In this document: positions 7,114-59,051 of the stretch, piece after piece
Layout: every line of letters starts with the position of its first letter
Numbering within the stretch: the first letter of the stretch is position 1
NCBI GenBank assembly: GCA_038883335.1
Contig: JAVZMI010000005.1
Location: forward strand, 1-64,000
DNA length: 64,000 bases
Origin: Candidatus Bathyarchaeia archaeon
GTDB lineage: Archaea; Thermoproteota; Bathyarchaeia; Hecatellales; Hecatellaceae
Direction: 5' to 3'
Notes under the pieces: model-generated
Databases searched by the model: none
Told to the model about the DNA's origin: nothing
The model's input: the letters and a program-made list of their open reading frames with translations, nothing else
Position numbers and translations under genes: made by a program

Positions 7114-7239
7114 TACCTCGCCTCTGCTCCAGTCTACATGGCATGTTCTTATAAATCTTGCGAAAAAGTTAGAAAATTCTTGACTTAAAACAGGTTCAGA
7201 AGCAAAACTCTTATTTACTAAATCTGGTAAGAATTCACC

Positions 7240-7695
7240 GTGGACGATCTAGACCTGAAAATACTCTACGCTCTGCGGTTTAATGCTAGGAAGCCTTTCC
7301 TAGAGTTAGCAAAGGATCTCGGAGTTGCAGATGCCACCATCCATGCCCGAGTTAAAAAGATGATCAATGAGGGTATTATCAAAGGCTTCGAGACAGTAAT
7401 AGATGAAGAGAAGATGGGTTACGGGGTAACAGCCTTTATCGAGATCAGGGTTAAGCCTGGAGCAGCTGATGAGGTGGTCGCAAAGTTGAGCAAGACTGAA
7501 GGCGTATTAGAGGCGCATGAAATATATGGACACTGCGACATACTTTTGAAAGTTAGGACTAAAGGGCTAGCTGATTTAAGAGACAAGCTAGTGAAAGAGA
7601 TAAGGGAACTTAGCGACGTGGTCTCCAGCGAAGCGTATACCGTGCTAAAAGTCGCGAAAGAAGAACGTAGTTTGCCAGTTTTCGCACATCAATAA
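7240..7695 (+). CDS. Lrp/AsnC-family transcriptional regulator
   Basis: 151 residues: winged HTH (DLDLKILYALRFNARKPFLE at the start, then a recognition helix DATIHARVKKM) followed by an AsnC/RAM ligand domain (FIEIRVKPGAADEVVAKLSK; GVLEAHEIYGHCDILLKV). GTG start. A TATA-like CTTATTTA about 28 bases before the start suggests a leaderless mRNA. Lrp proteins sense amino acids or small metabolites. The divergent permease (end of promoter at 7113) is the natural candidate target, by inference only. Confidence 0.9.
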   Translation: MDDLDLKILYALRFNARKPFLELAKDLGVADATIHARVKKMINEGIIKGFETVIDEEKMGYGVTAFIEIRVKPGAADEVVAKLSKTEGVLEAHEIYGHCDILLKVRTKGLADLRDKLVKEIRELSDVVSSEAYTVLKVAKEERSLPVFAHQ

Positions 7696-7714
7696 TAAGG
7701 GTGCAAGAACTGAT

Positions 7715-8290
7715 TTGGCGCCTGGAAATTCAGTAGAACTAGCATTGGTCACAAGCCTACTCGCTACACTGCTTGGCGCACTAGGCTTCTCTCTTGCGTT
7801 CAAAGATTACATTGCAAGCTTCATCGCCGGACTGATTTTCAGGAGGATTAAGAATATCAAACCTGGCATCAGGGTCAAGATCCTGACCTCCCCTATTGTT
7901 AAGGGAGACATATTGAATATAGGGTGGCTGAGGACGACTCTACAGGAAGTTGGCGATGGTGAAAGGCTCCCCAGTGTCCAGACTGGGAGGATCTTAAAGA
8001 TTCCGAACTTCCTACTCTTCAATAACCCAACGCTTCTCTACGGGGAGTCAATAATAGACGAGGTTGTGGCGTATATTAGAAGCGACTTAACGAATTTCGA
8101 CTTGAGAATGGTGGAAAATATGAGGAAGGCGATAGAGGCTGAGGGGCAGAAGGTCATAGAGATTGGTTTCTACCAAAAAGATAACAGCTTCGTCGTGCAT
8201 GGAATATTTCAATCAAAGACACATGAACTCGGTGATGTCAGGAGCAAGATCTTAATGCGTTACTTCGAGATGTGTAAGAGGGAAGCCTAG
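7715..8290 (+). CDS. Small MscS-like mechanosensitive-channel protein
   Basis: 191 residues, TTG start. One to two N-terminal membrane helices, the second with the Gly/Ala pattern of MscS TM3 and LAFKDYIASFIAGLIF, then a beta domain (IKPGIRVKI...GDILNIGWLRTTLQ; GRILKIPNFLLFNNPTL) that matches the MscS Sm-like layer, and an alpha/beta tail. It lacks the extra N-terminal helices of MscS and is near the short end for the family. Close behind the Lrp gene (19 bases), so probably one transcript. Role would be osmotic release; not proven here. Confidence 0.78.
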   Translation: MAPGNSVELALVTSLLATLLGALGFSLAFKDYIASFIAGLIFRRIKNIKPGIRVKILTSPIVKGDILNIGWLRTTLQEVGDGERLPSVQTGRILKIPNFLLFNNPTLLYGESIIDEVVAYIRSDLTNFDLRMVENMRKAIEAEGQKVIEIGFYQKDNSFVVHGIFQSKTHELGDVRSKILMRYFEMCKREA

Positions 8291-8397
8291 CTAAGGCAGT
8301 AAAGTTAGATGACTCTACCTGCGACTAGTGGTAACGTGTTAACCTTTAGCCAATAGCCGTCTCTAGGGTGGACAGGCAGTCTGGAGGTTGCCGATAA

Positions 8398-8685
8398 TTG
8401 GCTGTCAAAAATTTTGGTCGACTGATGAAGGGTAGGTTGATCGCTTCTGAGGAGGATTTTGGGGCTGGCGTTAGGAAATACATTATAAAGCTGGAGCCTG
8501 CTGAGGAGAGCTATAAAAGTCTCCACGTGGTCTACAGTGACGGAAGATACGAGGTCTCTTTAACTCTTCTCGCCCCTCAAGGTAAATATGAGTTGTTCGA
8601 CGGAAATCTGAGAGTTCGAGGCGTTGAGTTCTACCCAACTCTTCAAGAGGCAGAGGAGAGGATAAGGTACCTCTTCAGTACATAA
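8398..8685 (+). CDS. Hypothetical 95-residue protein
   Basis: TTG start. Mostly beta-strand-like sequence with alternating charged and hydrophobic residues (RKYIIKLEPAEESYKSLHVV) and a C-terminal helix; no signal peptide or membrane helix. No family recognised. Same direction as the neighbours, with about 107 bases before it and a good stop before the pyrophosphatase promoter. Confidence 0.55.
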   Translation: MAVKNFGRLMKGRLIASEEDFGAGVRKYIIKLEPAEESYKSLHVVYSDGRYEVSLTLLAPQGKYELFDGNLRVRGVEFYPTLQEAEERIRYLFST

Positions 8686-8734
8686 GGTAAGCTGTTTAGA
8701 CCCCTACGAACAATTCACGAAAAACTTTAGGCGT

Positions 8735-8775
8735 TAATTATAAATCGTAGATGCCTCGGTGTCTAATAAACACCG
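8735..8775 (+). promoter_or_regulatory. Promoter and hairpin before the membrane pyrophosphatase
   Basis: A TATA-like TTAATTATAAAT at about 8734-8745 is followed by an inverted repeat CGGTGT (8757-8762) and ACACCG (8770-8775) with a 7-base loop. It falls where transcription should begin, so it is either an operator or a 5' leader hairpin. A GGAG ribosome site stands at 8839-8842. Confidence 0.45.
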
Positions 8776-8852
8776 GCCATGCCTCAACTGGGATGAAAGC
8801 TTGGTCATAGCTGCTCGCAAATGTAGGATAGATCTTAAGGAGTTGATTTGAG

Positions 8853-10997
8853 TTGGAGCTTATGGTACCCTTGGTTGCAGCTGTCTTGGCTGTTGCGGCT
8901 GCCAGCATATTGGGGTTGTGGGTGCTCAGGCAGAACCCAGGGAATCCCAAGATGGTGGAGATCTCAGAGGCAGTTCGTTTAGGCGGAGCTACTTTCCTAA
9001 AGAAGGAGTTCAGTTACATCTTCCCCATAGCAATCGCCATCGCCTTAGTTATATGGGTCTCATTGCCGCTCGTAGGCGGTGCCACAGGCCTAGCAGGTGA
9101 GATGACTGGCCTATCTTGGGCAGACAGCTGGAAGATTTCCGTTGGCTTCCTCATCGGCTCAGGCTTGGCCGCGCTGGCAGGCTATTTTGGTATGGCGGTG
9201 ACAACGCGGTCTGCAAGCCGTGCGGCTGAGGCTGCCAAGGGCGGTATCGGCCCCTGCCTGGTGGTCTCCTTTAGGGCGGGCTCGGTTATGGGTCTCTGCG
9301 TCGTTGGGCTTGGTCTACTAGGGGTCGCGGGGCTCTATCTGGCTTTGGGCGCTAAGCCCTCCGCGGTGCCGCTCATAGTGGGTTTAGGATTCGGAGCAAG
9401 TCTCGTCTCGATGTTCATTAGGGTCGGCGGAGGCATATTCACGAAGGCAGCTGACTTGGGCGCCGACTTGGTGGGGAAGGTTGAAGTTGGAATTCCGGAG
9501 GATGACCCACGCAATCCTGCTGTAATAGCTGATAATGTAGGTGACAATGTGGGAGACTGCGCGGGGATGGGTTCAGATGTCTATGAGTCCTATATAGTAA
9601 TCATGATCGCTACCATGCTGCTCGGTTACTTTGGCTTCTGGCAGCTGGATTCATGGTCGAATGCTATAACATTCCCGATGCTGCTGGGGGCGGCAGGAAT
9701 CTTCGGCTCGATGCTTGGGGTAACGGTGGTGCATGAAGGGTGGAAGGGGGAACCTATGCGGGCTTTAGACCTCTCATTTTACATGGCAACAGTGACTAGT
9801 GCGGTTTTATGCTTCCTCCTCGCCGGCTGGATGTTCGGCTTCGGAACCCCGCTAGCCATCGGGCTGTTCGTCTGTAGTCTGATAGGGCTGGTGGTAGTGA
9901 TCCTCTTGGAGAAAGTCGCCGACCGGTACACATCCTATAAATACGCACCCGTTCGCTCAATCGCAGATGCCTCCCTAGCTGGGCCGCCTACAACCTTCTT
10001 AGCAGGGCTCTCAGTAGGATTGAAGAGTACATTCCCCAGCATGCTCATTCTTGTTGTAGCAATTATAGTATCCTATACGGTAGGCTATCTCTCGGCACCT
10101 TGGGGTGTGGATGCCTCAATTATGGGAATTTATGCTGTGGCGATCACTACGACTGGCATGCTCTCACTCTCAGGGATAGTTATGTCGATTGACTCTTTCG
10201 GGCCTGTCTCGGATAATGCAAACGGCATAGTTGAGATGACTGGGATGGGTGAGGTTCGCGAAGTCACAGATAAGCTGGATGCGATAGGTAATACCACTAA
10301 AGCCACGACTAAGGGCTTCGCCATAGGCAGCGCAGCTCTCTCGGCACTAGCACTGTTCCAAGCTTTCCGCATAGATGCGGTGCGGGGGATGACTGAACTG
10401 GGGCGCGATGTTCCAGCCTTCACGCTGGTGGATCCACTTGTCATCTTAGGGCTTCTAGTGGGTGGGCTCCTCCCGTTCTACTTCAGCTCATTCCTGATCC
10501 TTGCAGTGGGCAAGACAGGTATGCGAATAGTAGATGAGGTCAGGAGGCAATTCAGGGAGATTACCGGCATCATGGATGGGCGAGCCAAGCCTGACTATGA
10601 GAGGTGCGTCAGCATCGCTACTAAAGGTGCCATAAGTGAGCTTGCAGCTCCAGCCTTGATCGCCGTGGCAACACCGATCGTCTTGGGGGTCCTCTTCGGG
10701 GTGAGAGCGGTGGGAGGGTTGCTTGTGGGGGTAGTTGTTTCAGGTGTATTTCTAGCTTTCATGATGACTAATGGCGGCGGAGCTTTAGACAACGCAAAGA
10801 AATACATCGAACTTGGGAATTTAGGAGGGAAAGGCTCTGAGGCGCATAAGGCGGCTGTTATGGGTGATACTGTAGGAGACCCACTCAAGGATACAGCTGG
10901 GCCTGCGATAAACCCGTTGATCAAGGTGGTGCAGACGGTTTCCATAATCTTCCTGCCTCTCTTCCTCGTAGCCGAGTTGACAGCGTTGCTCGTCTAA
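8853..10997 (+). CDS. hppA: K+-independent H+-translocating membrane pyrophosphatase
   Basis: 714 residues and about 16 membrane helices. It hydrolyses cytosolic PPi and pumps protons out. The catalytic sites are plain: EVGIPEDDPRNPAVIADNVG then DNVGDCAGMGSD near residue 220-250, DSFGPVSDNANGI near 450, and GDTVGDPLKDTAGPAINP near 670. The stretch GNTTKATTKG at 479-488 has Lys (about 483) where K+-dependent enzymes have Ala, the established mark of the K+-independent proton-pumping group. TTG start chosen because the GGAG site is 10 bases before it; the ATG nine bases later is too far. Confidence 0.96.
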   Translation: MELMVPLVAAVLAVAAASILGLWVLRQNPGNPKMVEISEAVRLGGATFLKKEFSYIFPIAIAIALVIWVSLPLVGGATGLAGEMTGLSWADSWKISVGFLIGSGLAALAGYFGMAVTTRSASRAAEAAKGGIGPCLVVSFRAGSVMGLCVVGLGLLGVAGLYLALGAKPSAVPLIVGLGFGASLVSMFIRVGGGIFTKAADLGADLVGKVEVGIPEDDPRNPAVIADNVGDNVGDCAGMGSDVYESYIVIMIATMLLGYFGFWQLDSWSNAITFPMLLGAAGIFGSMLGVTVVHEGWKGEPMRALDLSFYMATVTSAVLCFLLAGWMFGFGTPLAIGLFVCSLIGLVVVILLEKVADRYTSYKYAPVRSIADASLAGPPTTFLAGLSVGLKSTFPSMLILVVAIIVSYTVGYLSAPWGVDASIMGIYAVAITTTGMLSLSGIVMSIDSFGPVSDNANGIVEMTGMGEVREVTDKLDAIGNTTKATTKGFAIGSAALSALALFQAFRIDAVRGMTELGRDVPAFTLVDPLVILGLLVGGLLPFYFSSFLILAVGKTGMRIVDEVRRQFREITGIMDGRAKPDYERCVSIATKGAISELAAPALIAVATPIVLGVLFGVRAVGGLLVGVVVSGVFLAFMMTNGGGALDNAKKYIELGNLGGKGSEAHKAAVMGDTVGDPLKDTAGPAINPLIKVVQTVSIIFLPLFLVAELTALLV

Positions 10998-47601: not shown

Positions 47602-49023
47602 ATGGGGCAATGCTGGGACAGATTGTTAGAGCTGGATAAGCGGTATTACTTGTTTAACTACTATGCCGCAGAAGAGTATGCTCCTACGCTGATAACCGAG
47701 ACCGATGGAGCCTATATAGTTGACGATAAGGGGAATAGGCTACTAGACTTAACCGCTCAGTTGATGTGTGTAAACCTCGGAAACCGCCACCAAAAGATCC
47801 AGGCGGCCATAAGGGAGAGTCTCAACAAATTTGGATATGTCTGGGAGAAGTACCCCACCGAGGAGAGGATCAAAGCTACCTGCCTTCTGATGGAGAACAT
47901 CTTGGGAAGTGATGGCTGGGCGGGTAAGTTGCGGTTTGTAAGCACGGGGAGCGAGGCTGTGGAGATGGGTCTAATGTTGGCTAAGCTATTCATGAACCGC
48001 CCCAACATATTCACAAGGCTTTGGGCGTATCACGGGTGGACTGAAGCCGCGAGATCCTGCACAATGATTCGGGGTATCCGCGGGCTGCTATCCTCCAGAA
48101 AAGGCTATATAAAGGACATCCCAGCTAACCACACAGGAGGTTACTTTGTCGCTCCACCACCTTACTGTTACAGGTGCCCTCTAGGTAGGGACTATCCTGA
48201 CTGTAAGGTGAGTGGTAAGCTGGGCTGTGTCACTTTTACAGAACATCTCATCGAAGCTGTTGGCGCCGAGACTGTCGCTGGAGTTATCACAGAGGTGGTG
48301 ATGGGTGTGGGGGCGGTTGTCCCACCTCCGGAGTATACTCCTCAGATGAGAAGATTAACTCACAATTTAGGCTTACTCTGGATAGATGACGAGGTGGTAT
48401 GTGGCTTTGGGAGGACTGGCAAATGGTTCGCATACCAGCACTATCTGCCAGAAGTGAAACCTGATATAATGATCCTAGGTAAAGGGTTGACAAGCGCCCA
48501 GCTGCCAGCCGCCGGCGTAGTTGTAAGCAAAGAGATCGCCAAATTCTTCGAGGACTATCGCTGGTGGCATGTATCCACATATGGGGCTCACCCCATCGTG
48601 ATGGCCGTTGTGGCGGCTAATATAGAGGCCATGCTGGAGGATGGTGTAGTTGACCACGCCGCCAAGATCGGCGAATATCTCGGGGAAGGCTTGAGAAGTC
48701 TTCAAGATAGGCATAGGTGCGTTGGCCATGTGGCAGGTGTGGGGATGTTCTGGACGGTTGAGATAGTTAAAGACCGAGATACCAAGAAACCATTTATAGA
48801 GGAAGATAGGGGGGCGCTCTATACAGGCGACACCTCAAACTACCCTGTGAGCATAATCGCATCCAAGTGCTTAGAAAAAGGTTGCCTTATAGGAGGGTTC
48901 ACACCAAACACACTCCGCATAACGCCGCCGCTGACCTTAAATGAGGAGGAGGTGGACAAAGGTCTGGCGGCTCTAGACTATGCGCTGGCGGCTGTAGATA
49001 AAATGTGCCCCCTCAATCGTTGA
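47602..49023 (+). CDS. Class III aminotransferase (omega-amino acid type)
   Basis: 473 residues. PLP Lys294 in ILGKGLTSAQLPAAGV, WIDDEVVCGFGRTG for the cofactor ring, and SEAVEMGLMLAKL. The insert PPPYCYRCPLGRDYPDC (three Cys, possible metal site) is seen in beta-alanine/taurine-type enzymes. Likely moves amino groups from GABA, beta-alanine or ornithine. Runs head-on into the ornithine-cyclodeaminase-family gene, whose ends overlap by 11 bases. Confidence 0.9.
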   Translation: MGQCWDRLLELDKRYYLFNYYAAEEYAPTLITETDGAYIVDDKGNRLLDLTAQLMCVNLGNRHQKIQAAIRESLNKFGYVWEKYPTEERIKATCLLMENILGSDGWAGKLRFVSTGSEAVEMGLMLAKLFMNRPNIFTRLWAYHGWTEAARSCTMIRGIRGLLSSRKGYIKDIPANHTGGYFVAPPPYCYRCPLGRDYPDCKVSGKLGCVTFTEHLIEAVGAETVAGVITEVVMGVGAVVPPPEYTPQMRRLTHNLGLLWIDDEVVCGFGRTGKWFAYQHYLPEVKPDIMILGKGLTSAQLPAAGVVVSKEIAKFFEDYRWWHVSTYGAHPIVMAVVAANIEAMLEDGVVDHAAKIGEYLGEGLRSLQDRHRCVGHVAGVGMFWTVEIVKDRDTKKPFIEEDRGALYTGDTSNYPVSIIASKCLEKGCLIGGFTPNTLRITPPLTLNEEEVDKGLAALDYALAAVDKMCPLNR

Positions 49024-50011
49024 GAGTGACCCATCTCCCAAGCTTTGCGGCTCTAGCCTTCCTGTAAGCCCTTTCAGCAGCCGAGACATCCTGTAAGGAG
49101 AGCCCCGTAGAGTCGAAGATTGTAATCTCGTCGTCGGAGGTCCTTCCAATCTTTGCGCCTGTAAGAACTTCCCCCAGCTCCCCGCGAATATCATCCTTCG
49201 TAATAAACCCTTGGCGAAAGGGAACATTCATCTCTCCACTGTGAATCGCCTGCTCCACATCATCCACAAATATCCTTGCCCGCTTCAGAAGTAGGGGATC
49301 AAGCTCCTGCTTGCCCGGGGCATCAGCCCCTATAGCATTTATATGAGTTCCAGGGCTGATCCAACTGCTCTCCACAATGGGAGCCCTGCTTGGCGTCTGA
49401 GTGGAGACCACATCGGCTCCCTCGACGCATCTTTTTACATCTTCACAGGGGGTGAACCTAAATTTAAACTGGCGGCGATTTACCTCAATGAACCTTCTGA
49501 GAGCCTCATCACTTAGATCCGTTACTCTTACCTCTTCCAGATGTGGCAGTACCGCACTTATACATTTAAGCTGTGCCGAGGCTTGAACTCCAGCACCGAC
49601 TAAAGCCAAAACACGGGAGTTGGGTCGCCCCAAATGTTTCGTGGCGATGGCTCCGGCAGCGCCAGTTCTCATAGCGGTTATCCATGTACAACCCATTATC
49701 GCTAGAGGGCTTCCAGTCTGGGGATCCGCCAGGATCATCGTGGCGATGATTGAGGGTAGCCCATACTTTTTTGGGTTGTCCGGGTGGGCATTGACCACTT
49801 TCACACCTGAAATGTTAAGGCTCTCGATATAGGAGGGCATGGTTCTAAGGTCGCCGCCATACCTCTCGAAGAAGAGGTAGCTCTTCGGTGGCATCTGTGT
49901 CTTCCCCAAAGCTTTCTCTTTGAAGGCTAACTCCGCCGTCTCGAGGAAGTCCTCTATCTCCAGTGCCTGTTTTACCTCGCTTTCAGAAAGAAGAAGTATG
50001 CGTTTAGCCAG
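49013..50011 (-). CDS. Ornithine cyclodeaminase/mu-crystallin family protein with a CTG start
   Basis: 332 residues if CTG at 50009-50011 is used. The beginning LLLSESEVKQALEIEDFLET matches the family N-terminus, yet no ATG, GTG or TTG lies there, and a TAA stands two codons upstream. From the internal TTG at 49909 the domain would lose its N-terminus. NAD loop VLALVGAGVQASAQLKCI and GAGAGVQA-type. Could be OCD, alanine dehydrogenase or a ketimine reductase. Confidence 0.8.
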   Translation of the reverse strand: MAKRILLLSESEVKQALEIEDFLETAELAFKEKALGKTQMPPKSYLFFERYGGDLRTMPSYIESLNISGVKVVNAHPDNPKKYGLPSIIATMILADPQTGSPLAIMGCTWITAMRTGAAGAIATKHLGRPNSRVLALVGAGVQASAQLKCISAVLPHLEEVRVTDLSDEALRRFIEVNRRQFKFRFTPCEDVKRCVEGADVVSTQTPSRAPIVESSWISPGTHINAIGADAPGKQELDPLLLKRARIFVDDVEQAIHSGEMNVPFRQGFITKDDIRGELGEVLTGAKIGRTSDDEITIFDSTGLSLQDVSAAERAYRKARAAKLGRWVTLND

Positions 50012-50376: not shown

Positions 50377-51720
50377 ATGGAAGTTGGATTTACGCTGAAA
50401 GATAGGATTAACGAGCTTGCGAAACAACTGGAAGTTTACGGTTTCACCTACAAGGAGGCAGTTGTCTACCTTAATCTTCTTGCAAAAAATGGTTGCAAGG
50501 CTTCTGAACTTGCTGAAACCTTGGGGATGCAGAGAACTGCCGTCTATGAAATTCTTAATGAGCTGCAGAAGAGAGCGGTAGTTCAAAGGACACTCGAGAA
50601 ACCTTTTAGATATAGCGCCCTACCTGTGGCGAACGTGATAACAGCGCATCTTGCTGAGTTTACCCAGAAATTAAAGGAGAAAGAAGCTAATAAAGCTAAA
50701 ATTCTCGCCAACTTGGATTTTCTTCCCGTCAAGAAACCTACGGATGTTGAATTTTTCCAGCTAGTTCAGGGTAGGGATGTAATCTATGGTAAAGTCAGGG
50801 ACCTATGTAGCGTAGCTGAAGAAGAAATCCTGATAGCCTTGAGCCAACCCCTCTCGATTATTGTTAAGTATGATTTGGACAGCGTGTTCAGAAGTGCGCG
50901 GAGTAATGGGGTCAAGGTTAGATTGTTGAATGATCTGCAGCGATCTGAAACGTCTCTAGTAAAGAAACTGTTGAGGGTCTGTGAGATCCGCCATGCGTCC
51001 ACTCTCTGCTCAGACTTTTTCATAGTCGACAAGCATGTCTTGATGGTTTTGAAAAATAACCCGGATGCGCCATCTAAAGATACTGCACTCTGGTTAGACT
51101 CAGCTGGATTTAGGAGTGCGATGAGAGCTCTATTCGGCGAATGGTGGCATATGAGCCTCGGCGCGAGGCAATATTTACTCGAGTTAAAGAAGAGCTGCGA
51201 GCATGGTGAAATTTTTTCATGCCTTAATTACGAGTGCATTAAACCCTACGCAATCCGTATGTACTACTCAGCCAAGGAGGAGATAGATCTAATGGGCCTA
51301 AGTGAAACAGCTTTGCCGCATCAGATAAAGGAGTGCCAGGAGATAATGAAAAATAAATCGGTGAACGAGAAAGTTCACGTTCGGGCCTTGGCGCACTTAA
51401 GCGGGCCGGTTTCCGATGGTCTACTAGACCTCGCAAAATATGTTGAGGTGCGGATAACCGACTTTGCTTGTGCGGCTATGCTTAGCATCGTAGACCAGAA
51501 TGAGGTTCTCATCCAAGATCTTACAGGCTATAACGAGGCGGGGGCATGCTTGGCAACATGGATTCGCTCCCCTGCTGTTGCATCTTCATTCCGCCTCTTC
51601 TTCGAGTATGTGTGGGATAGTTCAACACCCTTCGATGAAATGGCGGTGCTTCCTTCCGGCAGTGTCATCTCAAAGAGTAAGTCTGTCTCTCTTGCCTCTT
51701 TAAAAGTCTACAGGCCTTAA
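50377..51720 (+). CDS. TrmB-family transcriptional regulator
   Basis: 447 residues from ATG 50377. The HTH (LEVYGFTYKEAVVYLNLLAK; TLGMQRTAVYEILNELQKR) and the PLD-like sensor (DVIYGKVRDLCSVAEEEILIALS) are TrmB-type, with a long repeated second sensor half to about residue 430. TrmB proteins respond to sugars or other small molecules. Beside the amidase/transport genes, so likely their regulator (inference). Confidence 0.85.
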   Translation: MEVGFTLKDRINELAKQLEVYGFTYKEAVVYLNLLAKNGCKASELAETLGMQRTAVYEILNELQKRAVVQRTLEKPFRYSALPVANVITAHLAEFTQKLKEKEANKAKILANLDFLPVKKPTDVEFFQLVQGRDVIYGKVRDLCSVAEEEILIALSQPLSIIVKYDLDSVFRSARSNGVKVRLLNDLQRSETSLVKKLLRVCEIRHASTLCSDFFIVDKHVLMVLKNNPDAPSKDTALWLDSAGFRSAMRALFGEWWHMSLGARQYLLELKKSCEHGEIFSCLNYECIKPYAIRMYYSAKEEIDLMGLSETALPHQIKECQEIMKNKSVNEKVHVRALAHLSGPVSDGLLDLAKYVEVRITDFACAAMLSIVDQNEVLIQDLTGYNEAGACLATWIRSPAVASSFRLFFEYVWDSSTPFDEMAVLPSGSVISKSKSVSLASLKVYRP

Positions 51721-51741
51721 AGTTAATAAAAAGGAATGGTT

Positions 51742-51766
51742 AGGTGGCCTTGTTCATTAGCCACCT
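51742..51766. terminator. Hairpin between converging genes
   Basis: AGGTGGC/GCCACCT seven-base inverted repeat with an 11-base loop, followed by TTTT. It sits 22 bases after the TrmB stop and 14 before the CBS gene end, so it can terminate from both sides. Confidence 0.55.
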
Positions 51767-51779
51767 TTTGAGGGTGTCT

Positions 51780-52223
51780 CTATTCTTTCGGCCGGTACAA
51801 AAACGGGTTAAAGCCGAAGATTTGGGTTAGTTTAGCGGCGGGGGTGGGTATTGCTCTTAACACGTCATCGCTTGTTAGTATGCCTACCAGTTTGTTAGCC
51901 TTGTCGACTACTGGTAGTCTCCGTATCATTTTCCTACGCATCAATTCAACAGCTTCACTTAAACTTGCATCTTGGTTGACTGTGACTACTGGTTTTGACA
52001 TCACGTCACCAATCTTCGTGGTCAGTTCTTTTCCTGCGGCTAGACATTTCCTGATACAATCTCTCTCTGTGAGGATTCCAGCAATCTCGCCAGCTTCAAC
52101 TACGACAACTGATCCGATGGCGTTATCAGTCATTAATTTAATTGCTTCTTTCACGGTGTTTTGGGGGCTGATAGTAACCACTTTCACTCTCATAGCATCT
52201 TTTACTTTTGTTGTTATGGGCAA
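51780..52223 (-). CDS. CBS-domain pair protein
   Basis: 147 residues, two CBS repeats (PQNTVKEAIKLMTDNAIGSVVVV; QDASLSEAVELMRRKMIRRLPVV). Free-standing pairs bind AMP, ATP or SAM and regulate enzymes or channels. It is 57 bases after the amidase on the same strand, so probably transcribed with it. Confidence 0.88.
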   Translation of the reverse strand: MPITTKVKDAMRVKVVTISPQNTVKEAIKLMTDNAIGSVVVVEAGEIAGILTERDCIRKCLAAGKELTTKIGDVMSKPVVTVNQDASLSEAVELMRRKMIRRLPVVDKANKLVGILTSDDVLRAIPTPAAKLTQIFGFNPFLYRPKE

Positions 52224-52280
52224 CGAGATTACACCTTCTCTTGAAAAGTTAGAGAGATAAAAAAAATAAAAGGTAAAGAG

Positions 52281-53342
52281 CTACTTGACTGCGTCCTTGT
52301 AGTAGTCCTCCCAGAATCTGTCGAAGTGCTTCCTAACGTACTCGCGGTTCTTCTTCCAGTCCCAGTCTATGTCGTCCTTGATTCCAACGTTGGGTGGGAA
52401 GGTTATGGCTCTAGTGTGGTAGTTGTATAGCTCCTTCCTGAAGTTGGCCAGACCGTTGTGGCACATCATGGTTCGCCTGTAGGCTCTCACAGCAGGTATG
52501 TCGAAGTGGGTGAAACAGTAGGCCTCACATGCAGCATTGGGGCAGGCAGATAGGATGCGTCCCTCATAGTCAGTGATGCAGCTAGCCCCTTGCATCGGGT
52601 AGGGTGGAGCGTGGAATGGTTCCCAGCCACCGTTAATGCCCATGCCGTACGCCATGTTGAACCAGCTGGATGATCTCGTTTCAAGGGCTATGTAGTCTTG
52701 TGGTGGGGTCACATAGGGGTCCATCAGGAGGAATGGGTGCAGCAGGATCTCAGCTCCGTTGAACGCAAGTTGCCTGGCAGGCTCTGGCTGCGTGCCGTCG
52801 TTGCAGATGAAGATACCTATGTTCCCAATCTCAGTCTTGGCTACTGGGAAGAACGGCTCCTCCCAACCAGCATTTATGAAGTCATGTGGGCTCGGCCAGA
52901 ATTCGTCTGGGAGCCATGGGTTGGTTTTACGATATACCATTAATATTTTGCCGTCTGGGCCGAAGAGTGGTGCGGCGTCGAAGATTGTCTTGGGGAACTT
53001 GGGGTGGTCCTCAGACATGGATCCGAAGCACGCGTAGATGCGGTACTTCTTGGCTATCTCTCCGACACGGTCGGTGATGGGGCCTGGAACCCGCTCAGCA
53101 ACCTGTCTAGCCTCTCTGATGCTTCTTGCGACGTAGCCAGATATCTGGTATTCTGGGAAGCAGAACAGTTTCACTGGGAAGCTGTAGCTGAACTGTTCCC
53201 AGCCCATGTTGACGAAGTCTTCCATCTGGTCTATGTTCTTGTATATTACGTCCTTGGAGAGCGTTGTGGCGAGCTCTTTTAGTTGTCTGTTTTGGCAGCC
53301 GACTGCTACATATCTTTCTATCAAAGGCATCTTTGCTTTCAC
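52281..53342 (-). CDS. Nitrilase-superfamily aliphatic amidase
   Basis: 353 residues. Triad Glu64 (CFPEYQ), Lys139 (YRKTNPW) and Cys180 (FICNDGTQPEPARQ). The RKxxPW and CNDGxxPE motifs point to the amidase (AmiE/AmiF) branch, which splits acetamide or formamide into acid and ammonia; ureido-acid hydrolase is an alternative. Divergent from the symporter, with 132 bases shared between. Confidence 0.85.
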   Translation of the reverse strand: MKAKMPLIERYVAVGCQNRQLKELATTLSKDVIYKNIDQMEDFVNMGWEQFSYSFPVKLFCFPEYQISGYVARSIREARQVAERVPGPITDRVGEIAKKYRIYACFGSMSEDHPKFPKTIFDAAPLFGPDGKILMVYRKTNPWLPDEFWPSPHDFINAGWEEPFFPVAKTEIGNIGIFICNDGTQPEPARQLAFNGAEILLHPFLLMDPYVTPPQDYIALETRSSSWFNMAYGMGINGGWEPFHAPPYPMQGASCITDYEGRILSACPNAACEAYCFTHFDIPAVRAYRRTMMCHNGLANFRKELYNYHTRAITFPPNVGIKDDIDWDWKKNREYVRKHFDRFWEDYYKDAVK

Positions 53343-53474
53343 TCCTATAGGTTTTTTCGATCTATAACTTGAGCCGTTATCGCATAAAAGATTGTGTACG
53401 TAAATTAGCTGACATACATGGCTTTAAAGGGACAATCCGCGATTAACCATACGCAGAAACTGGAGGAACCAAAT

Positions 53475-55160
53475 ATGTCGGAAGTAATTGCAGCTGCCGA
53501 AAGTATCTCCGCTCCTTGGCCGTTTGCACAAATATTTCCCGCCGAGTTAGCAGTGAAGAGACCACTGCCTTCATACTTCGGTCCTATACTGATCTTCGGG
53601 CTGTCTGGGGTTTTCACTGTGCTGGTGTGGTTCATGGGGCGCTTCAAGGGGAGAACAGCTGAAGAGATGTTCTCTGGGGGGAGAGATGTCGGTCACGGGA
53701 TGAGTAACGCCGCAATCGTTGCAACGTGGGTCTGGGCGGCTACACTCATGATGAGCAGCTGGACTGGTTACACATATGGGCCTTCTGGTCCATGGTGGTA
53801 CTCGCTGGGTGCGACGTTGCCTCTGCCTATATTCGCTTATCTGGGGCAGACCTTGAAGGTCAAGATGCCTTTGATCCACACGTACCCTGAATTTATCCTA
53901 TTCAGACTGGACAGGAAGAACCACGTCTGCCAAGCGATCATCGCGATGATCGTCTGCCAGTGGGTTACGATAATGATCGTCTCCGGCGGATCCATTATGT
54001 ATATGACATATACTGGTCTACCCTTCGAGTTATGTGCCCTCTGCATGTGCATCTCATTCGCCGCTTACATACTGGTCGCTGGAGCCTGGGCCGCCATATT
54101 CGCGGATATGGCTATGGGCTTAACCATCTACGTATGTCTTGGCATATGCATCTGGGGTTCAATGGTGTTACTTGGGCCGCTCAAGATTTGGGAGGGGCTC
54201 GTTCACCATTACACTACACATCCGATCATAGAGCCGTGGGGTCCCTACTCCAATGAGTTCTATAGGACGAACCAATGGGACTGCATCAACTACCTGAACG
54301 CTGCAGGTATAGGCTTCCTGATCGTCAACTCCGTAGGCAACTTGGGGGCTGTCCTCAACAACTCCACCTATTGGTCGATAGCCATCGCCGCAGATAAACC
54401 GAGAACCGTTTGGACCTCTTACATAGCCTCAGCGCTCTGTTGGGCTCCAATCCCGCTCTCGATGGCTACTTCAAGAGGCGTAGTAGGGCTAGCTTTAGGT
54501 GTTACATTAGGTGAGACGTATCAGGGAGGCCAACATGGTGTTCCGTTTGGAGGGGCTGAAAATGCTTACATATACTTCCAGGAGGCGGAGGCTGTAGCTC
54601 CGCTGACCGCCTTCACGGTGCTGGGCTATGTAGGGTTGATTGCTTTCTTCGTCGCGGTTGGAGCTGCGACCGTCAGCACTGGCGCCCATGAAACTATGTC
54701 TACTGTCACGAACTTCGTGAACGACCTATACCGCTACTATATAAGACCTAAAGCATCCGCTAGGGAGTTGCTGGTCCTTACTAGACTTATGGTGGGCGTA
54801 TCTTTGGCCATAAGTTTCTTCATCGTCGTCATGTGGCGTTGGTTAGGCTTCACCTTTGCCGGCATGTATCAAGCGATGGGCATATTCTTCTCCTCAGCCG
54901 TCATACCACTATGTTGCGCTGCATTCTGGAAGGATGCCAACAGGGATGGGTGCTTCTGGGGGACAGTGATAGGTGCTGCTCTCGGAATCGCCTACTGGGT
55001 AGCGTGCGACTGGAGCCTAGACTGGCCGGTCGTCTGGGCGAACATCATAGTCACAGCTGTCTCATGCTTCATCTGCGTCGGCTGGAGCGCTATAAAGCCT
55101 GAGAATTTCGACTTCACAAAGATGGCCACAATAGACGTCTACATACACGAGGAGGTGTAA
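53475..55160 (+). CDS. Sodium:solute symporter, Dur3-like (urea/amide)
   Basis: 561 residues from ATG 53475, chosen because GGAGGA lies 12 bases before it; the frame opens at 53418 without a ribosome site. About 13-14 helices. The block SNAAIVATWVWAATLMMSSW then YGPSGPWWYSLGATLPL resembles the TWAATLLQSS/KYGxSGPFWYAxGA pattern of the Dur3 urea/polyamine symporters. Imports urea, amide or related solute with Na+ or H+ (inference). Confidence 0.85.
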   Translation: MSEVIAAAESISAPWPFAQIFPAELAVKRPLPSYFGPILIFGLSGVFTVLVWFMGRFKGRTAEEMFSGGRDVGHGMSNAAIVATWVWAATLMMSSWTGYTYGPSGPWWYSLGATLPLPIFAYLGQTLKVKMPLIHTYPEFILFRLDRKNHVCQAIIAMIVCQWVTIMIVSGGSIMYMTYTGLPFELCALCMCISFAAYILVAGAWAAIFADMAMGLTIYVCLGICIWGSMVLLGPLKIWEGLVHHYTTHPIIEPWGPYSNEFYRTNQWDCINYLNAAGIGFLIVNSVGNLGAVLNNSTYWSIAIAADKPRTVWTSYIASALCWAPIPLSMATSRGVVGLALGVTLGETYQGGQHGVPFGGAENAYIYFQEAEAVAPLTAFTVLGYVGLIAFFVAVGAATVSTGAHETMSTVTNFVNDLYRYYIRPKASARELLVLTRLMVGVSLAISFFIVVMWRWLGFTFAGMYQAMGIFFSSAVIPLCCAAFWKDANRDGCFWGTVIGAALGIAYWVACDWSLDWPVVWANIIVTAVSCFICVGWSAIKPENFDFTKMATIDVYIHEEV

Positions 55161-55163
55161 AGG

Positions 55164-55385
55164 ATGGTTCAGGAGTTCGGAATCATAAACTACAACCTAT
55201 GGACATGGACAATCCTCTACGGTGCGACACTCGTCTGGGGCAGTGCAGCAGCCTTCTACACATGGCTATACTGTCTAGGCGACATAAAACACCTGCCCGA
55301 GAAACTGCGGGAGAGCAAAAAGAGGATTATGGAAATTGAGGAGCGTAGGAGGAAGGCCGAGGCAGAAAGGAAGGCTAAGGGGTAA
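55164..55385 (+). CDS. Small membrane partner of the symporter
   Basis: 73 residues, ATG start, four bases after the symporter stop and so translationally coupled. One helix (LYGATLVWGSAAAFYTWLY) then a charged coiled tail (LRESKKRIMEIEERRRKAEA). The tie to an SSS carrier matches the small accessory subunits known for this family. Function unproven. Confidence 0.7.
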   Translation: MVQEFGIINYNLWTWTILYGATLVWGSAAAFYTWLYCLGDIKHLPEKLRESKKRIMEIEERRRKAEAERKAKG

Positions 55386-55423
55386 ATGGAGGTTTAAAAC
55401 TTCAAAAAATGGAGGTGAAAGAT

Positions 55424-56467
55424 ATGGCTAGAAGAATCTTGATAGCTCTAGGTGGCAACGCATTGAAACAGGCACATGAGGCTGGAACAACCCAGGAACA
55501 GTTCAAGAATGCCTACATAACTGCCCGAGCCATAGTAGACCTGATGGGAACCTTAGAAGGCGAAGATGACAGGGTCGCTATGACCCATGGAAACGGGCCA
55601 CAGGCAGGGAACCTGCTGATTCAGCAGGAGGAAGCCACAAAGCTTGTACCTGCACAAGACTTTGATGTGGTTGGTGCCATGACGCAGGGGCAGATCGGCT
55701 ACACACTCCAACAGGCAATACAGAACACGATGCTCGACCTCCCCCCAGGAGACTGGAGGAGGGAGATGGGCGAGAAAGGCTTGGTCTTCGGAGTAGTCAA
55801 CCAAGTCTTGGTTGACATCAACGACCCAGACTTCCTAGACCCTACCAAACCCGTAGGCAACTTCTTCACAAAGGGAGAAGCTGAGGATCTCGTAAAGACC
55901 AAAGGCTATGTCCTTAACCCGCCACCAGGCAAAGAATACTTGGAAAAGAAGATGATGGGCTTCGTAATTAAACAGGTTAAACCTGAATCGGTTGAGCGGC
56001 GGTTCAGGCGAGTAGTTCCATCTCCAGACCCAATAAAGAACGTCGAAGGCGCAGCTCTCAAAGGCATGTTGGACATAGGCTACCTCATAATCGGTTCAGG
56101 CGGAGGAGGCATCCCGGTTGTGATGGACAAAGGCAAACTGAAAGGCGTCTTCGCGGTCATCGACAAGGACCTAGCCGGTGAACGTATGGGTGAAGCTATT
56201 GGTGCCAATGAGTTCTACATCTTAACAGATATCGATAGGGCTAGACTTAACTTCGGTAAACCGAACGAGAAGCCAATCGACCACATGGACATAGACGAAG
56301 CAAAGAAGTGGCTGGCAGAGGGGCACTTCTTACAAGGCAGCATGTATACTAAGGTAAAGGCGTGTATACGGTTCCTGGAGTGGGGCGGCTTAAAGGCTAG
56401 AATCGGCCACCTAGAACAAGCCAAAGAAGTCATAGCAGGTGTGAAAGGAACGGAGGTCTACAAATAG
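55424..56467 (+). CDS. arcC: Carbamate kinase
   Basis: 347 residues from ATG 55424 with GGAGGTGA at 55411. RRILIALGGNALKQAHEAG, MTHGNGPQAGNLL, VIDKDLAGERMGEAIGANEF and AKKWLAEGHFLQGSMYTKV are the amino-acid-kinase marks of carbamate kinase. It interconverts carbamoyl phosphate + ADP with carbamate + ATP. Somewhat longer than the usual 310. Lies in the amide island with the symporter; no arginine deiminase or ornithine transcarbamylase is next to it. Confidence 0.92.
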   Translation: MARRILIALGGNALKQAHEAGTTQEQFKNAYITARAIVDLMGTLEGEDDRVAMTHGNGPQAGNLLIQQEEATKLVPAQDFDVVGAMTQGQIGYTLQQAIQNTMLDLPPGDWRREMGEKGLVFGVVNQVLVDINDPDFLDPTKPVGNFFTKGEAEDLVKTKGYVLNPPPGKEYLEKKMMGFVIKQVKPESVERRFRRVVPSPDPIKNVEGAALKGMLDIGYLIIGSGGGGIPVVMDKGKLKGVFAVIDKDLAGERMGEAIGANEFYILTDIDRARLNFGKPNEKPIDHMDIDEAKKWLAEGHFLQGSMYTKVKACIRFLEWGGLKARIGHLEQAKEVIAGVKGTEVYK

Positions 56468-56497
56468 ACCTCCCCCTCTCTATGTGGAGTGAGGAAA

Positions 56498-56755
56498 ATG
56501 GGCTACGAGAAATATGGCTGGAAGAAGATGAGAAAGGAGGACAAGATCATCACAATAGTGATGTTCCTCTTCTTGCTAATCTTCTCAGCGATCTATGCAT
56601 CTATGGCGCTGCCACAGATCGCAGGTCTCCCATACTACTACCCCTTCAAGTCCCCAGCATGGGAAGATACAGTATTCACCGCCGACTACCTAACGAAGCT
56701 ATACTGGGACACCTACGTATACATCCCACCGCCACCAGGCATATACCCAGCATAA
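56498..56755 (+). CDS. Small membrane protein, 85 residues
   Basis: Start at ATG 56498 with GGAGTGAGG before it. Basic N-terminus, one helix (IITIVMFLFLLIFSAIYASM), then an aromatic, Pro-rich external tail ending in YVYIPPPPGIYPA. 30 bases behind carbamate kinase. Family unknown. An overlapping frame at 56482 is rejected. Confidence 0.6.
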   Translation: MGYEKYGWKKMRKEDKIITIVMFLFLLIFSAIYASMALPQIAGLPYYYPFKSPAWEDTVFTADYLTKLYWDTYVYIPPPPGIYPA

Positions 56756-56792
56756 AAGAGGCTTAAACGCAAGCACATGTGAGGTGAGAAAT

Positions 56793-57056
56793 ATGGGTAG
56801 TGAAGAGGAAGCGGCTAAAAGAAGAGCAGAATACATGGAACGTCTCAAGAAGGGTGGCGAGATCGGAAGAGGCAAAGCGACCGAAACAGGAGCCCAGCCG
56901 ATGAAGACACGGACGAAGGTTATAGTTTCCGTCGTCAACATAATCTTCGCTATAATTTATCTCTACTACCAGCTCGACAACCTCATGTGGTTGGGCTGGA
57001 TCCCGTGGATGCCCGGCTTCCCAGGATATGCTGCCAACGTCCCACCCCCCGCATAG
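56793..57056 (+). CDS. Small membrane protein, 87 residues
   Basis: Start at ATG 56793 with GAGGTGAG before it. Charged N-terminus with a helix (AAKRRAEYMERLKK), then one or two hydrophobic helices (VIVSVVNIIFAIIYLYY; LMWLGWIPWMPGF) and an end rich in Pro (NVPPPA). Same Pro-rich C-terminal style as the preceding gene. Unknown; part of the same island. Confidence 0.6.
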   Translation: MGSEEEAAKRRAEYMERLKKGGEIGRGKATETGAQPMKTRTKVIVSVVNIIFAIIYLYYQLDNLMWLGWIPWMPGFPGYAANVPPPA

Positions 57057-57433
57057 ACCCGGACATGCGAACGCCGATAGGCAAATCCCCCTATTACACC
57101 TCTTTTTTATGCTTCAACAAACTCTCTAGATAATTATTCCACTCTAGTTTTGTGTGTGGTTTGGGGTTAAAATTTTTAGGCTCGCTGTACTAACTCTGCC
57201 GTTCCATGCCTCTTAAAAACTAATATTTCATAGGCTACACTAAGAAGCTTGAAGGTAAACAGTTCCACACTAAATGGCAAGCCATATGGGCGAAGTTAAA
57301 GGGTATTGATAGTTCACAGAAGTCATGGAATTTTAAGAACGAAGATCCTAAAAATAGTGAAATAAAGATAAATGGGCGGAGAGATCGTGCCCAGGAGGTT
57401 ACACCCTTCGTAGAGGAAGGTGGGTGATACAGG
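57057..57433. other. Intergenic gap of 377 bases
   Basis: A T-tract (TCTTTTTTAT at about 57111) follows the small membrane gene and fits termination. The rest is A/T-rich (for example GGTTAAAATTTTTAGG near 57164) with no clear gene. It separates the genes before and after into two transcription units. Confidence 0.45.
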
Positions 57434-57652
57434 TTAAGCCTTTTCCGCCATCTTCATGTATTCCTCGTACTTCGCCATCTGCTTGAAGAGACTTACACGT
57501 TCCGCCTGATAGTCCGAGTCCACTAGTGGGTATACCATCCAGACAGGGTACATTAACAGATTAGCCACAGGCATCCATGCAGGGTCTATCATCCCTGGTA
57601 CGACCGTGAAGAGTATGCAAAGGATTGTTGTAATGTGTCCAGTCCAGCCCAT
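57434..57652 (-). CDS. Small membrane protein, 72 residues
   Basis: ATG start. TWGHITTILCILFTVVPGM-type first helix, a second (VANLLMYPVWMVYPLV) and a charged tail (KQMAKYEEYMKMAEKA). Divergent from the OFA transporter. Unknown, but the third small membrane protein in a 2.5-kb stretch. Confidence 0.6.
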   Translation of the reverse strand: MGWTGHITTILCILFTVVPGMIDPAWMPVANLLMYPVWMVYPLVDSDYQAERVSLFKQMAKYEEYMKMAEKA

Positions 57653-57809
57653 AGTTCACACCTTAAATATTTTTGGCAGCCTTCATACTTATAAGCCTTT
57701 TCCAGAACTCAAAATAAACAACACCAAGCAGCCCCCTGTAAGTAAACCTTATATAATACGCAAAAGCGCACTTTGCTTTCAAACTCTAAAACGAACGGGT
57801 TGTCCAATT

Positions 57810-59051
57810 ATGGAAGCCACGCAAAAGCTAAAACTCTTCGGGATGGGAGCCGAGAAAGGAAGATGGATCTTCGTCATCCTAGGCCTACTCATAAACATAT
57901 GCATGGGTACAATCTATGCTTGGAGCGTCTTCAGGAAACCCCTTGAAAGCCTCTTCGCAGCCAGCGCTACAGAAAGCCTCCTACCGTTCATCCTCTTCCT
58001 GGCACTCTTCGGTTTCATGATGCCGTTCTCTGGAAAGTGGATGGACAAGTATGGACCCAAGAAGGTTGCGATGCTCGGCGGAGTAATGGTTGGGATCGGT
58101 TGGCTGCTTGGAAGTCGATCCACAAACATGGCACTGTTATCGATCACATACGGGGTAATAGGCGGGGCAGGGGTCGGTCTTGCATACGGTTGCCCTATAG
58201 GCGTATCTGGAAGATGGTTCCCAGACAAGAAAGGGCTAGCCGTGGGAAGTACAGTCCTAGGCTTTGGAATCTCGCCGCTAGTTACAGCACCCCTAGCCAA
58301 CATGCTGATCTCACTCTACGGGCCACTCCAAACTCTCGCCTATTTGGGCGCAGTATTCCTTGTCGCGCTCGTAATACTCAGCCTGCCATTAAAATTCCCA
58401 CCAGCAAACTGGAAACCGACAGGTTGGGCTCCTGAAGTCAAAGCTCAAGCTCCAGACATTGCGCTGAAAGAGATGATACACTCGAAGAGCTTCGTCGGAC
58501 TGTGGGCATGTTACACAATAGGTACCCTAGCAGGTTTGATGGCGATAGGAATCAGCAGCCCAGTCGGGCAGGAAATCTTCGCCCTACCAGCAGCTACAGC
58601 CGCAACTTTAACAGGGACATTCGCCGTTTTCAACGGTATAGGAAGGCCTATTTTCGGAAGCCTGACTGACAAAATCACCCCACGCAACGCTGCGGTTCTA
58701 AACTTTGCAATAATCGCCGGCGCAGCGACTTCTCTTGGTCTATTCTCAGACTCAGGCCAGGTGTTCCTATACGTAGGCGCATTCATATGCCTCTGGTTCT
58801 GTCTCGGAGGCTGGCTAGCGATAGCTCCAACTGCTACCGCAACATTCTACGGCCTTAAGTACTATGGGTCAAACTATGGGGTGGTCTTTACAGCCTACGG
58901 CATGGGTGCAATAATAGGGAACCTGTTGGCTGGAAGTCTGCGCGACATGCTGGGAAGCTATGTGGCCGTATTCTTCCCAGTAGCTGGCCTAGCCGCGGTC
59001 GGAATCCTAATCGCTCTCGCCCTTATGAAACCGCCGGCGAAAAAAGCGTAG
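57810..59051 (+). CDS. MFS transporter, oxalate/formate antiporter (OFA) family
   Basis: 413 residues from ATG 57810; the 68 residues of the longer frame look untranslated. 12 helices. GLLINICMGTIYAWSVFRKPLE in helix one, motif A DKYGPKKVAMLGG, and SDLT-type GRPIFGSLTDKITPRN in the second half are OFA marks. Exchanges carboxylates. In an amide island it could export formate or another acid left by the amidase (inference). Confidence 0.85.
   Translation: MEATQKLKLFGMGAEKGRWIFVILGLLINICMGTIYAWSVFRKPLESLFAASATESLLPFILFLALFGFMMPFSGKWMDKYGPKKVAMLGGVMVGIGWLLGSRSTNMALLSITYGVIGGAGVGLAYGCPIGVSGRWFPDKKGLAVGSTVLGFGISPLVTAPLANMLISLYGPLQTLAYLGAVFLVALVILSLPLKFPPANWKPTGWAPEVKAQAPDIALKEMIHSKSFVGLWACYTIGTLAGLMAIGISSPVGQEIFALPAATAATLTGTFAVFNGIGRPIFGSLTDKITPRNAAVLNFAIIAGAATSLGLFSDSGQVFLYVGAFICLWFCLGGWLAIAPTATATFYGLKYYGSNYGVVFTAYGMGAIIGNLLAGSLRDMLGSYVAVFFPVAGLAAVGILIALALMKPPAKKA

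Follow-up and report, generated by a model that had tools for sequence, protein, structure and literature searches.

Gene organization of the island

The genome of a Candidatus Bathyarchaeia archaeon of the family Hecatellaceae (assembly GCA_038883335.1) carries an island in which a nitrilase-superfamily amidase, a Dur3-type symporter with a small putative partner and a carbamate kinase are found side by side. The island lies in a 64,000-nucleotide stretch (the window) of contig JAVZMI010000005.1 (C5, 102 kb), part of a 1.22-Mb genome that is 98.9% complete and archaeal by gene content. The original prediction, made from the sequence of the window, had described an amide or ureide uptake and assimilation island. 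Open reading frame (ORF) calls and hidden Markov model searches recovered the entire gene set it had listed, namely a TrmB regulator, a CBS protein, the amidase, the symporter and its partner, the kinase, three small membrane proteins and a carrier, each where it had been placed (Table 1). As argued below, chances are about even that the core of the island serves the urease-free use of urea or short amides, feeding an anabolic carbamate kinase.

Genes encoding the symporter, the 73-residue protein, the kinase and the 88- and 90-residue proteins run on the same strand, separated by only 3, 23, 21 and 28 bp. Because of these short gaps, the five genes probably form one operon, which diverges from the amidase-CBS pair across a 75-bp region that may act as a common promoter region. 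By position, the CBS gene may be cotranscribed with that of the amidase, and the protein may have a role in the island. The symporter has a possible internal start at ATG 53475.

Table 1 Features of the island. Positions refer to the window.
Feature	Position	Strand	Remarks
TrmB-type transcriptional regulator, 453 aa	50359..51720	+	PF01978 1.4e-14; alternative ATG start 50377
Stand-alone two-CBS-domain protein, 147 aa	51780..52223	-	PF00571 x2, 2.7e-35
Nitrilase-superfamily amidase (CN_hydrolase), 353 aa	52281..53342	-	PF00795; E64, K139, C180, second Glu E147
Divergent amidase/symporter intergenic region, 75 bp	53343..53417	.	Sequence read directly
Dur3-type SSS symporter, 580 aa	53418..55160	+	DUR3 matches by sequence, fold and residues
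Membrane protein, putative symporter partner, 73 aa	55164..55385	+	Coding score 0.23
Carbamate kinase, 352 aa	55409..56467	+	TIGR00746 1.1e-91; 1e19 1.3e-77
Single-pass membrane protein, 88 aa	56489..56755	+	Coding score 0.24; hydropathy maximum 2.5
Single-pass membrane protein, 90 aa	56784..57056	+	Coding score 0.18
Membrane protein, 72 aa	57434..57652	-	Coding score 0.21
MFS monocarboxylate (L-lactate-type) transporter, 413 aa	57810..59051	+	NF049980 SfMCT 384 bits

The symporter is related to urea transporters

When compared by sequence with proteins in the PDB, the symporter has strong relatives only among DUR3 proteins (plant DUR3, 9j7c, 8.5e-49; vSGLT, 1.3e-7). Foldseek searches with a model of moderate confidence (mean predicted local distance difference test score, pLDDT, 72) ranked DUR3 entries 1-6. 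Both sequence and fold thus place the protein with DUR3 rather than with other SSS proteins, as the original prediction had proposed.

In Aspergillus UreA, residues important for binding or transporting urea are known from mutagenesis, modelling or docking (PMC4077062, PMC9783183). They were mapped onto the symporter by aligning it with 16 archaeal Dur3 homologue sequences. Thirteen of the 17 key positions are kept (W82, W84, A86, T87, Y106, A110, T133, V161, N275, N279, Y289, Y437 and S446). Seven UreA residues (Y106, A110, N275, A374, Y388, Y437 and S446) tell urea transporters apart from paralogues that do not transport it; five of them are kept, while A374 is Thr and Y388 is Asn. The symporter shares sequence, fold and most pocket residues with plant, fungal and archaeal urea symporters of the DUR3/UreA type; it differs from them in its low identity (~30%) to the archaeal Dur3 homologues found, in several changed positions of the otherwise conserved pocket, in having a small partner protein and in being encoded by a genome without urease. 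Judging from these sequences, it belongs to a Dur3 subfamily that most likely still handles urea, or a substrate of nearly the size of urea, and whose selectivity may have changed.

The amidase is a divergent formamidase relative

Assignment of the amidase to the nitrilase superfamily was borne out. Among curated models, the protein matches formamidase PRK13287 (3.5e-22, 78.6 bits) and aliphatic amidase PRK13286 (2.1e-20) better than N-carbamoylputrescine amidase TIGR03381 (1.5e-12, 47.4 bits), and its best PDB matches, by sequence and by fold (model mean pLDDT 69), are BceAmiF, HpAmiF and AmiE. Residues E64, K139 and C180, as well as the second glutamate E147, are invariant in nine homologues. 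Like AmiF formamidases and the AmiE aliphatic amidase, the protein has the Glu-Lys-Cys set with the additional Glu and a PWxPxE motif. In contrast to them, it scores well under the curated cut-offs, carries the nucleophile in an ICNDG rather than an ICHDG or ICDDG context, and features extra stretches such as an SPHD loop. It is predicted to be a divergent relative of formamidases and aliphatic amidases with a full catalytic set, and may be called formamidase-like only.

Co-occurrence of amidase and symporter in a distant bacterium

Conservation of the whole island was rejected, as the set was found in this genome only and in none of 120 genomes of the class and 397 other genomes of the phylum. 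The symporter subtype is likewise absent from both samples (0/120 and 0/397) and, among ~900 genomes, occurs only here and in one Firmicutes metagenome-assembled genome (MAG), UBA1874. The same MAG encodes the closest homologue of the amidase (53-54% identity), identified by scanning 84,980 species genomes with a pattern-based search. UBA1874 was searched for the symporter after the amidase match, and a protein 49-50% identical to it is present; none was found in 398 other Firmicutes genomes (E <= 1e-40). Because both proteins co-occur in so distant a bacterium, their pairing is unlikely to be accidental, and, of the sequence evidence, this co-occurrence speaks most strongly for a joint function of the two. 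The original prediction had named neighbours varying freely between strains as a reason for abandoning it; the set is indeed not conserved, yet the amidase and the symporter co-occur in UBA1874. Contamination of the MAG with archaeal DNA is unlikely, as both contigs carry genes that, read by eye, are of bacterial type (e.g., rnhA, phoU, paaK and genes for hydrogenase maturation), although mixing within the MAG is possible.

The position corresponding to UreA T133 is Ser in the UBA1874 symporter, a replacement that UreA tolerates (PMC4077062, PMC9783183). Directly downstream, in the place occupied by the 73-residue protein in the archaeon, UBA1874 encodes a 55-residue membrane ORF (alignment Z=3.9, with 1 of 500 shuffles as good). 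The 73-residue protein is therefore regarded as a putative partner of the symporter.

Genome-wide absences reported here are the outcome of family searches. The urease alpha subunit (PF00449) has no match in UBA1874 or in the entire archaeal genome, which extends beyond the window the earlier observation that no urease is seen. In a phylum-wide sample, Dur3 homologues were confined to 17 genomes from three other families. All nine tested archaeal carriers encode urease, in most cases within ~10 kb of the Dur3 gene. The island resembles these urease-Dur3 neighbourhoods in that a Dur3-type importer is found near a hydrolase of its substrate. In contrast to them, a nitrilase-fold amidase, divergent from and adjacent to the symporter, takes the position of urease. 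More distant homologues of the amidase are found in unrelated contexts, for instance beside MsrA-like and amidohydrolase-like genes, and a class-wide urea island was rejected on these grounds. Viral or plasmid carriage of the island was also rejected, as there was no viral match, and among plasmids only distant SSS matches were found.

Carbamate kinase and the supply of carbamoyl phosphate

The kinase scores below the cut-off of the arcC model TIGR00746 (307.1 bits vs 358.25). Its closest PDB relative is the carbamate kinase of P. furiosus, 1e19, and on the strength of this match the protein is very likely a carbamate kinase. It is 58-60% identical to the kinases of class relatives, and is therefore native to the class and not part of an acquired symporter/amidase pair; such joint acquisition was rejected on this ground and because no kinase was found in UBA1874. 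Kinase homologues in class relatives are located elsewhere and, in several genomes, adjacent to pyrB-like genes (read by eye).

No large-subunit domain of carbamoyl-phosphate synthetase (CPSase) was found in this genome, while it is present in 14 of 14 control genomes; the small subunit CarA was not searched for. The other users of carbamoyl phosphate that the original prediction suggested looking for are present, as PyrB and two ornithine transcarbamoylase (OTC)-like proteins are encoded within 3.5 kb on contig C1 (L104:7578-11114). Both OTC-like proteins also match the putrescine carbamoyltransferase model, under its cut-off, and the second, 328 aa long, may be a transcarbamoylase of catabolic or other function. 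Across the class, the presence of the kinase is associated with the absence of CPSase: among 39 genomes of good quality, 12 have the kinase only, 18 CPSase only, 6 both and 3 neither (Fisher p = 0.0011, in a test treating related, non-independent genomes as independent). The kinase is probably the only source of carbamoyl phosphate for PyrB and the OTC-like enzymes, and the capture as carbamoyl phosphate postulated in the original prediction gains support.

The sequence of the kinase, the lack of a CPSase large subunit and the presence of aspartate and ornithine transcarbamoylases fit the profile of an anabolic carbamate kinase. Archaea lacking CPSase use carbamate kinase anabolically, which requires high levels of ammonia or carbamate (PMC6022934). 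The closest parallel is the anabolic enzyme of Pyrococcus and Thermococcus, described as a carbamate kinase-like carbamoyl-phosphate synthetase (PMC6022934), which shares these features and includes 1e19. In contrast, the kinase analysed here is ~40 residues longer than 1e19, and its gene shares a run with that of a urea/amide importer, whereas the Pyrococcus/Thermococcus system relies on ambient ammonia.

In a relative of the same family (G001, L078 1788-18140), a carbamate kinase gene is accompanied, as read by eye, by two further transcarbamoylase-like genes and by genes encoding a hydantoinase/dihydropyrimidinase-like protein, a PreA/PreT-like pair, and aldehyde ferredoxin oxidoreductase-like and MttB-like proteins. 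This stretch looks like a set for anaerobic ureide catabolism.

Urea-type genes on contig C12

Contig C12 (L144:10107-14656) carries genes encoding a creatininase-family protein, an NCS1 permease, a homologue of biuret hydrolase and a full-length (453 aa) TrmB paralogue, 23% identical over 423 residues to the TrmB protein of the island (9e-27). The biuret hydrolase homologue matches NF050097 (2.1e-101, 338 bits vs a cut-off of 370) and solved biuret hydrolases (~1e-84 to 4e-91). In ammonia-oxidising archaea, biuH has been reported with codB and, in one MAG, also with creatininase (PMC12625717). By analogy with these biuH neighbourhoods, L144:10107-14656 is a probable ureide-use cluster.

In the adjoining L144:5332-9043 (contig C12 ~6331-10042), the carboxyltransferase of urea carboxylase is represented by two genes, one for each half (437 and 395 bits). 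The second half is much closer to yeast urea carboxylase (5e-75) than to the best PxpB-type protein (7e-19). Beside them are genes for the beta subunit of a Na+-pumping decarboxylase (TIGR01109, 416 bits vs a cut-off of 190.6) and for a biotin carboxyl carrier protein (BCCP) with an EAMKMEN motif; BirA and a BioY-like protein are encoded next door. Only the carboxyltransferase halves and BCCP match the urea amidolyase model TIGR02712, positions 1-442 of which are left without a match. As no biotin carboxylase domain was found in the genome, the complex has no means of charging biotin at the expense of ATP. The carboxyltransferase and decarboxylase genes may encode a Na+-pumping allophanate decarboxylase that releases urea. 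With this candidate enzyme, urea is likely to be an internal metabolite of the archaeon, which makes a role of the island in handling urea more likely.

At a locus separate from L144 (L145:11145-15335), genes encoding CO dehydrogenase/acetyl-CoA synthase-like proteins were noted by eye, which suggests a Wood-Ljungdahl anaerobe.

Small membrane proteins and flanking genes

The four small ORFs of the island score 0.18-0.24 bits/codon, values similar to those of the large genes; 95% of all small ORFs in the window score at most 0.154. The 88-, 90- and 72-residue proteins have no family match in profile searches; the 90-residue protein is perhaps a weak paralogue of the 88-residue one (Z=2.0).

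The MFS gene, the likely start of which is ATG 57810, begins 754 bp beyond the preceding gene of the plus strand. Because of this distance, it is probably a separate transcription unit, outside the island system. Its product scores above the cut-off (320) of the SfMCT L-lactate transporter model NF049980, and below those of the oxalate/formate (OFA) models TIGR04259 (180 vs 335) and TIGR00890 (209 vs 375). The proposal that an OFA carrier exports carboxylate as part of the system was consequently dropped, while the remainder of the amide flow originally put forward, i.e., import, hydrolysis and capture as carbamoyl phosphate, was supported.

Genes encoding a class-III aminotransferase and an ornithine cyclodeaminase/mu-crystallin protein are convergent just upstream of the island (window 47602-49909).

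A putative urease-free route to carbamoyl phosphate

In the reading we favour, to which we give about an even chance, the symporter and its small partner would take up urea, or a short amide closely related to it, for hydrolysis in the cytosol by the formamidase-like Cys-Glu-Lys amidase. The carbamate set free, or else ammonia together with bicarbonate, would then be captured by the anabolic carbamate kinase in the form of carbamoyl phosphate, which would feed aspartate and ornithine transcarbamoylases and hence nucleotide and arginine synthesis. The association of amidase and kinase makes biochemical sense, since cleavage of urea yields carbamate itself. Moreover, local amide hydrolysis would supply ammonia and carbamate at the high levels needed by anabolic archaeal kinases (PMC6022934). 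We infer that import, hydrolysis and phosphorylation constitute one flow, that the kinase works in the synthetic direction, and that urea is favoured over formamide and acetamide as substrate. This preference for urea derives from the transporter and the genome context, not from the amidase itself.

The closest known arrangement is the fmdCABDEF cluster of the bacterium Methylophilus methylotrophus, in which a formamidase is associated with a high-affinity ABC transporter for short-chain amides and urea (Wyborn 1996 and Mills 1998, cited in PMC10781810). In both cases, a nitrilase-superfamily amidase is clustered with a dedicated short-amide/urea transporter. The fmd cluster features an ABC transporter and a porin and has no described carbamate kinase, whereas the archaeal island features a Dur3 symporter and the kinase. 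Compared with known clusters for amide uptake and hydrolysis, new features are a carbamate kinase, a carrier of Dur3 type and the lack of urease. No paper describing this gene combination was found in a literature search, and a search on urease-independent urea use with carbamate kinase mainly yielded reviews and work on oxamate/allantoin and arginine pathways.

Several observations weigh against the proposed route. The island as a whole is known from one genome; in UBA1874, the amidase and symporter genes are unlinked, on different contigs, and carbamate kinase was not detected. The symporter and its UBA1874 homologue carry identical changes relative to UreA (T282A, D286N, A374T and Y388N), and UreA Q90 and T93 are also replaced in the symporter; such changed pocket positions may have shifted its selectivity. 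The amidase scores far under both the formamidase (406 bits) and the aliphatic-amidase cut-offs, and characterised formamidases of the nitrilase family do not act on urea, some being inhibited by it (PMC10781810). A carbamoyl-cysteine switch has been cited for this effect of urea (reviewed in PMC10781810).

These points bear on a possible, though less probable, alternative, in which the island only scavenges short-chain amides. Formamide or acetamide would be imported and hydrolysed to ammonia and carboxylate, urea would not be a substrate of the amidase, and the kinase would be co-regulated for its need of ammonia. The relationship of the amidase to formamidases and aliphatic amidases, including their second Glu, the rejection of urea by the characterised enzymes and the fmd precedent all fit this alternative, as does the altered pocket of the symporter, since acetamide is a ligand of UreA, bound with higher affinity after single changes in the pocket (PMC9783183). 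However, most residues of the urea pathway are kept in the symporter, its archaeal relatives are found in urease-bearing genomes, mostly close to urease, and the genome holds other genes of urea, biuret and allophanate type.

A more specific version of urea use is rather unlikely. Here, the amidase would be a nickel-free urea amidohydrolase of the nitrilase fold that has overcome the carbamoyl-cysteine block and passes carbamate to the kinase, at the cost of one ATP. Upstream, biuret would be converted into allophanate, and a biotin enzyme made of urea-carboxylase-type carboxyltransferase and Na+-pumping decarboxylase subunits would split allophanate into urea and CO2, pumping sodium.

It is also improbable that the genes are independent neighbours, i.e., that the symporter and amidase were acquired together, the kinase is a housekeeping enzyme lying downstream by chance, and the genes for the MFS, CBS and TrmB proteins have no connection with the rest. 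The lack of conservation of the set, the class-native kinase next to a symporter that is not native, and the occurrence of the pair in UBA1874 without a detected kinase are in line with this possibility. The tight same-strand run argues against it, as does the fit of a carbamate kinase to the release of carbamate and ammonia. Moreover, the kinase is the only evident source of carbamoyl phosphate, so its placement in the run affects an essential supply.

Finally, action of the amidase on an N-carbamoyl compound (e.g., N-carbamoylputrescine), with the kinase working in the ATP-making direction, is highly improbable, as the formamidase model scores clearly better than the matching TIGR03381 and the kinase is needed anabolically in a genome with no CPSase large subunit, even if two OTC-like enzymes match the putrescine carbamoyltransferase model and polyamines are among the substrates of yeast Dur3.

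Should urea be the substrate, the island would provide a urease-free and nickel-free route by which both the nitrogen and the carbon of urea enter carbamoyl phosphate, and would explain how carbamate stays sufficiently high in an archaeon whose carbamate kinase is anabolic. Even in the plain short-amide form, the island adds a Dur3-amidase pairing, which suggests that Dur3 homologues in urease-free genomes should not be taken as partners of urease.

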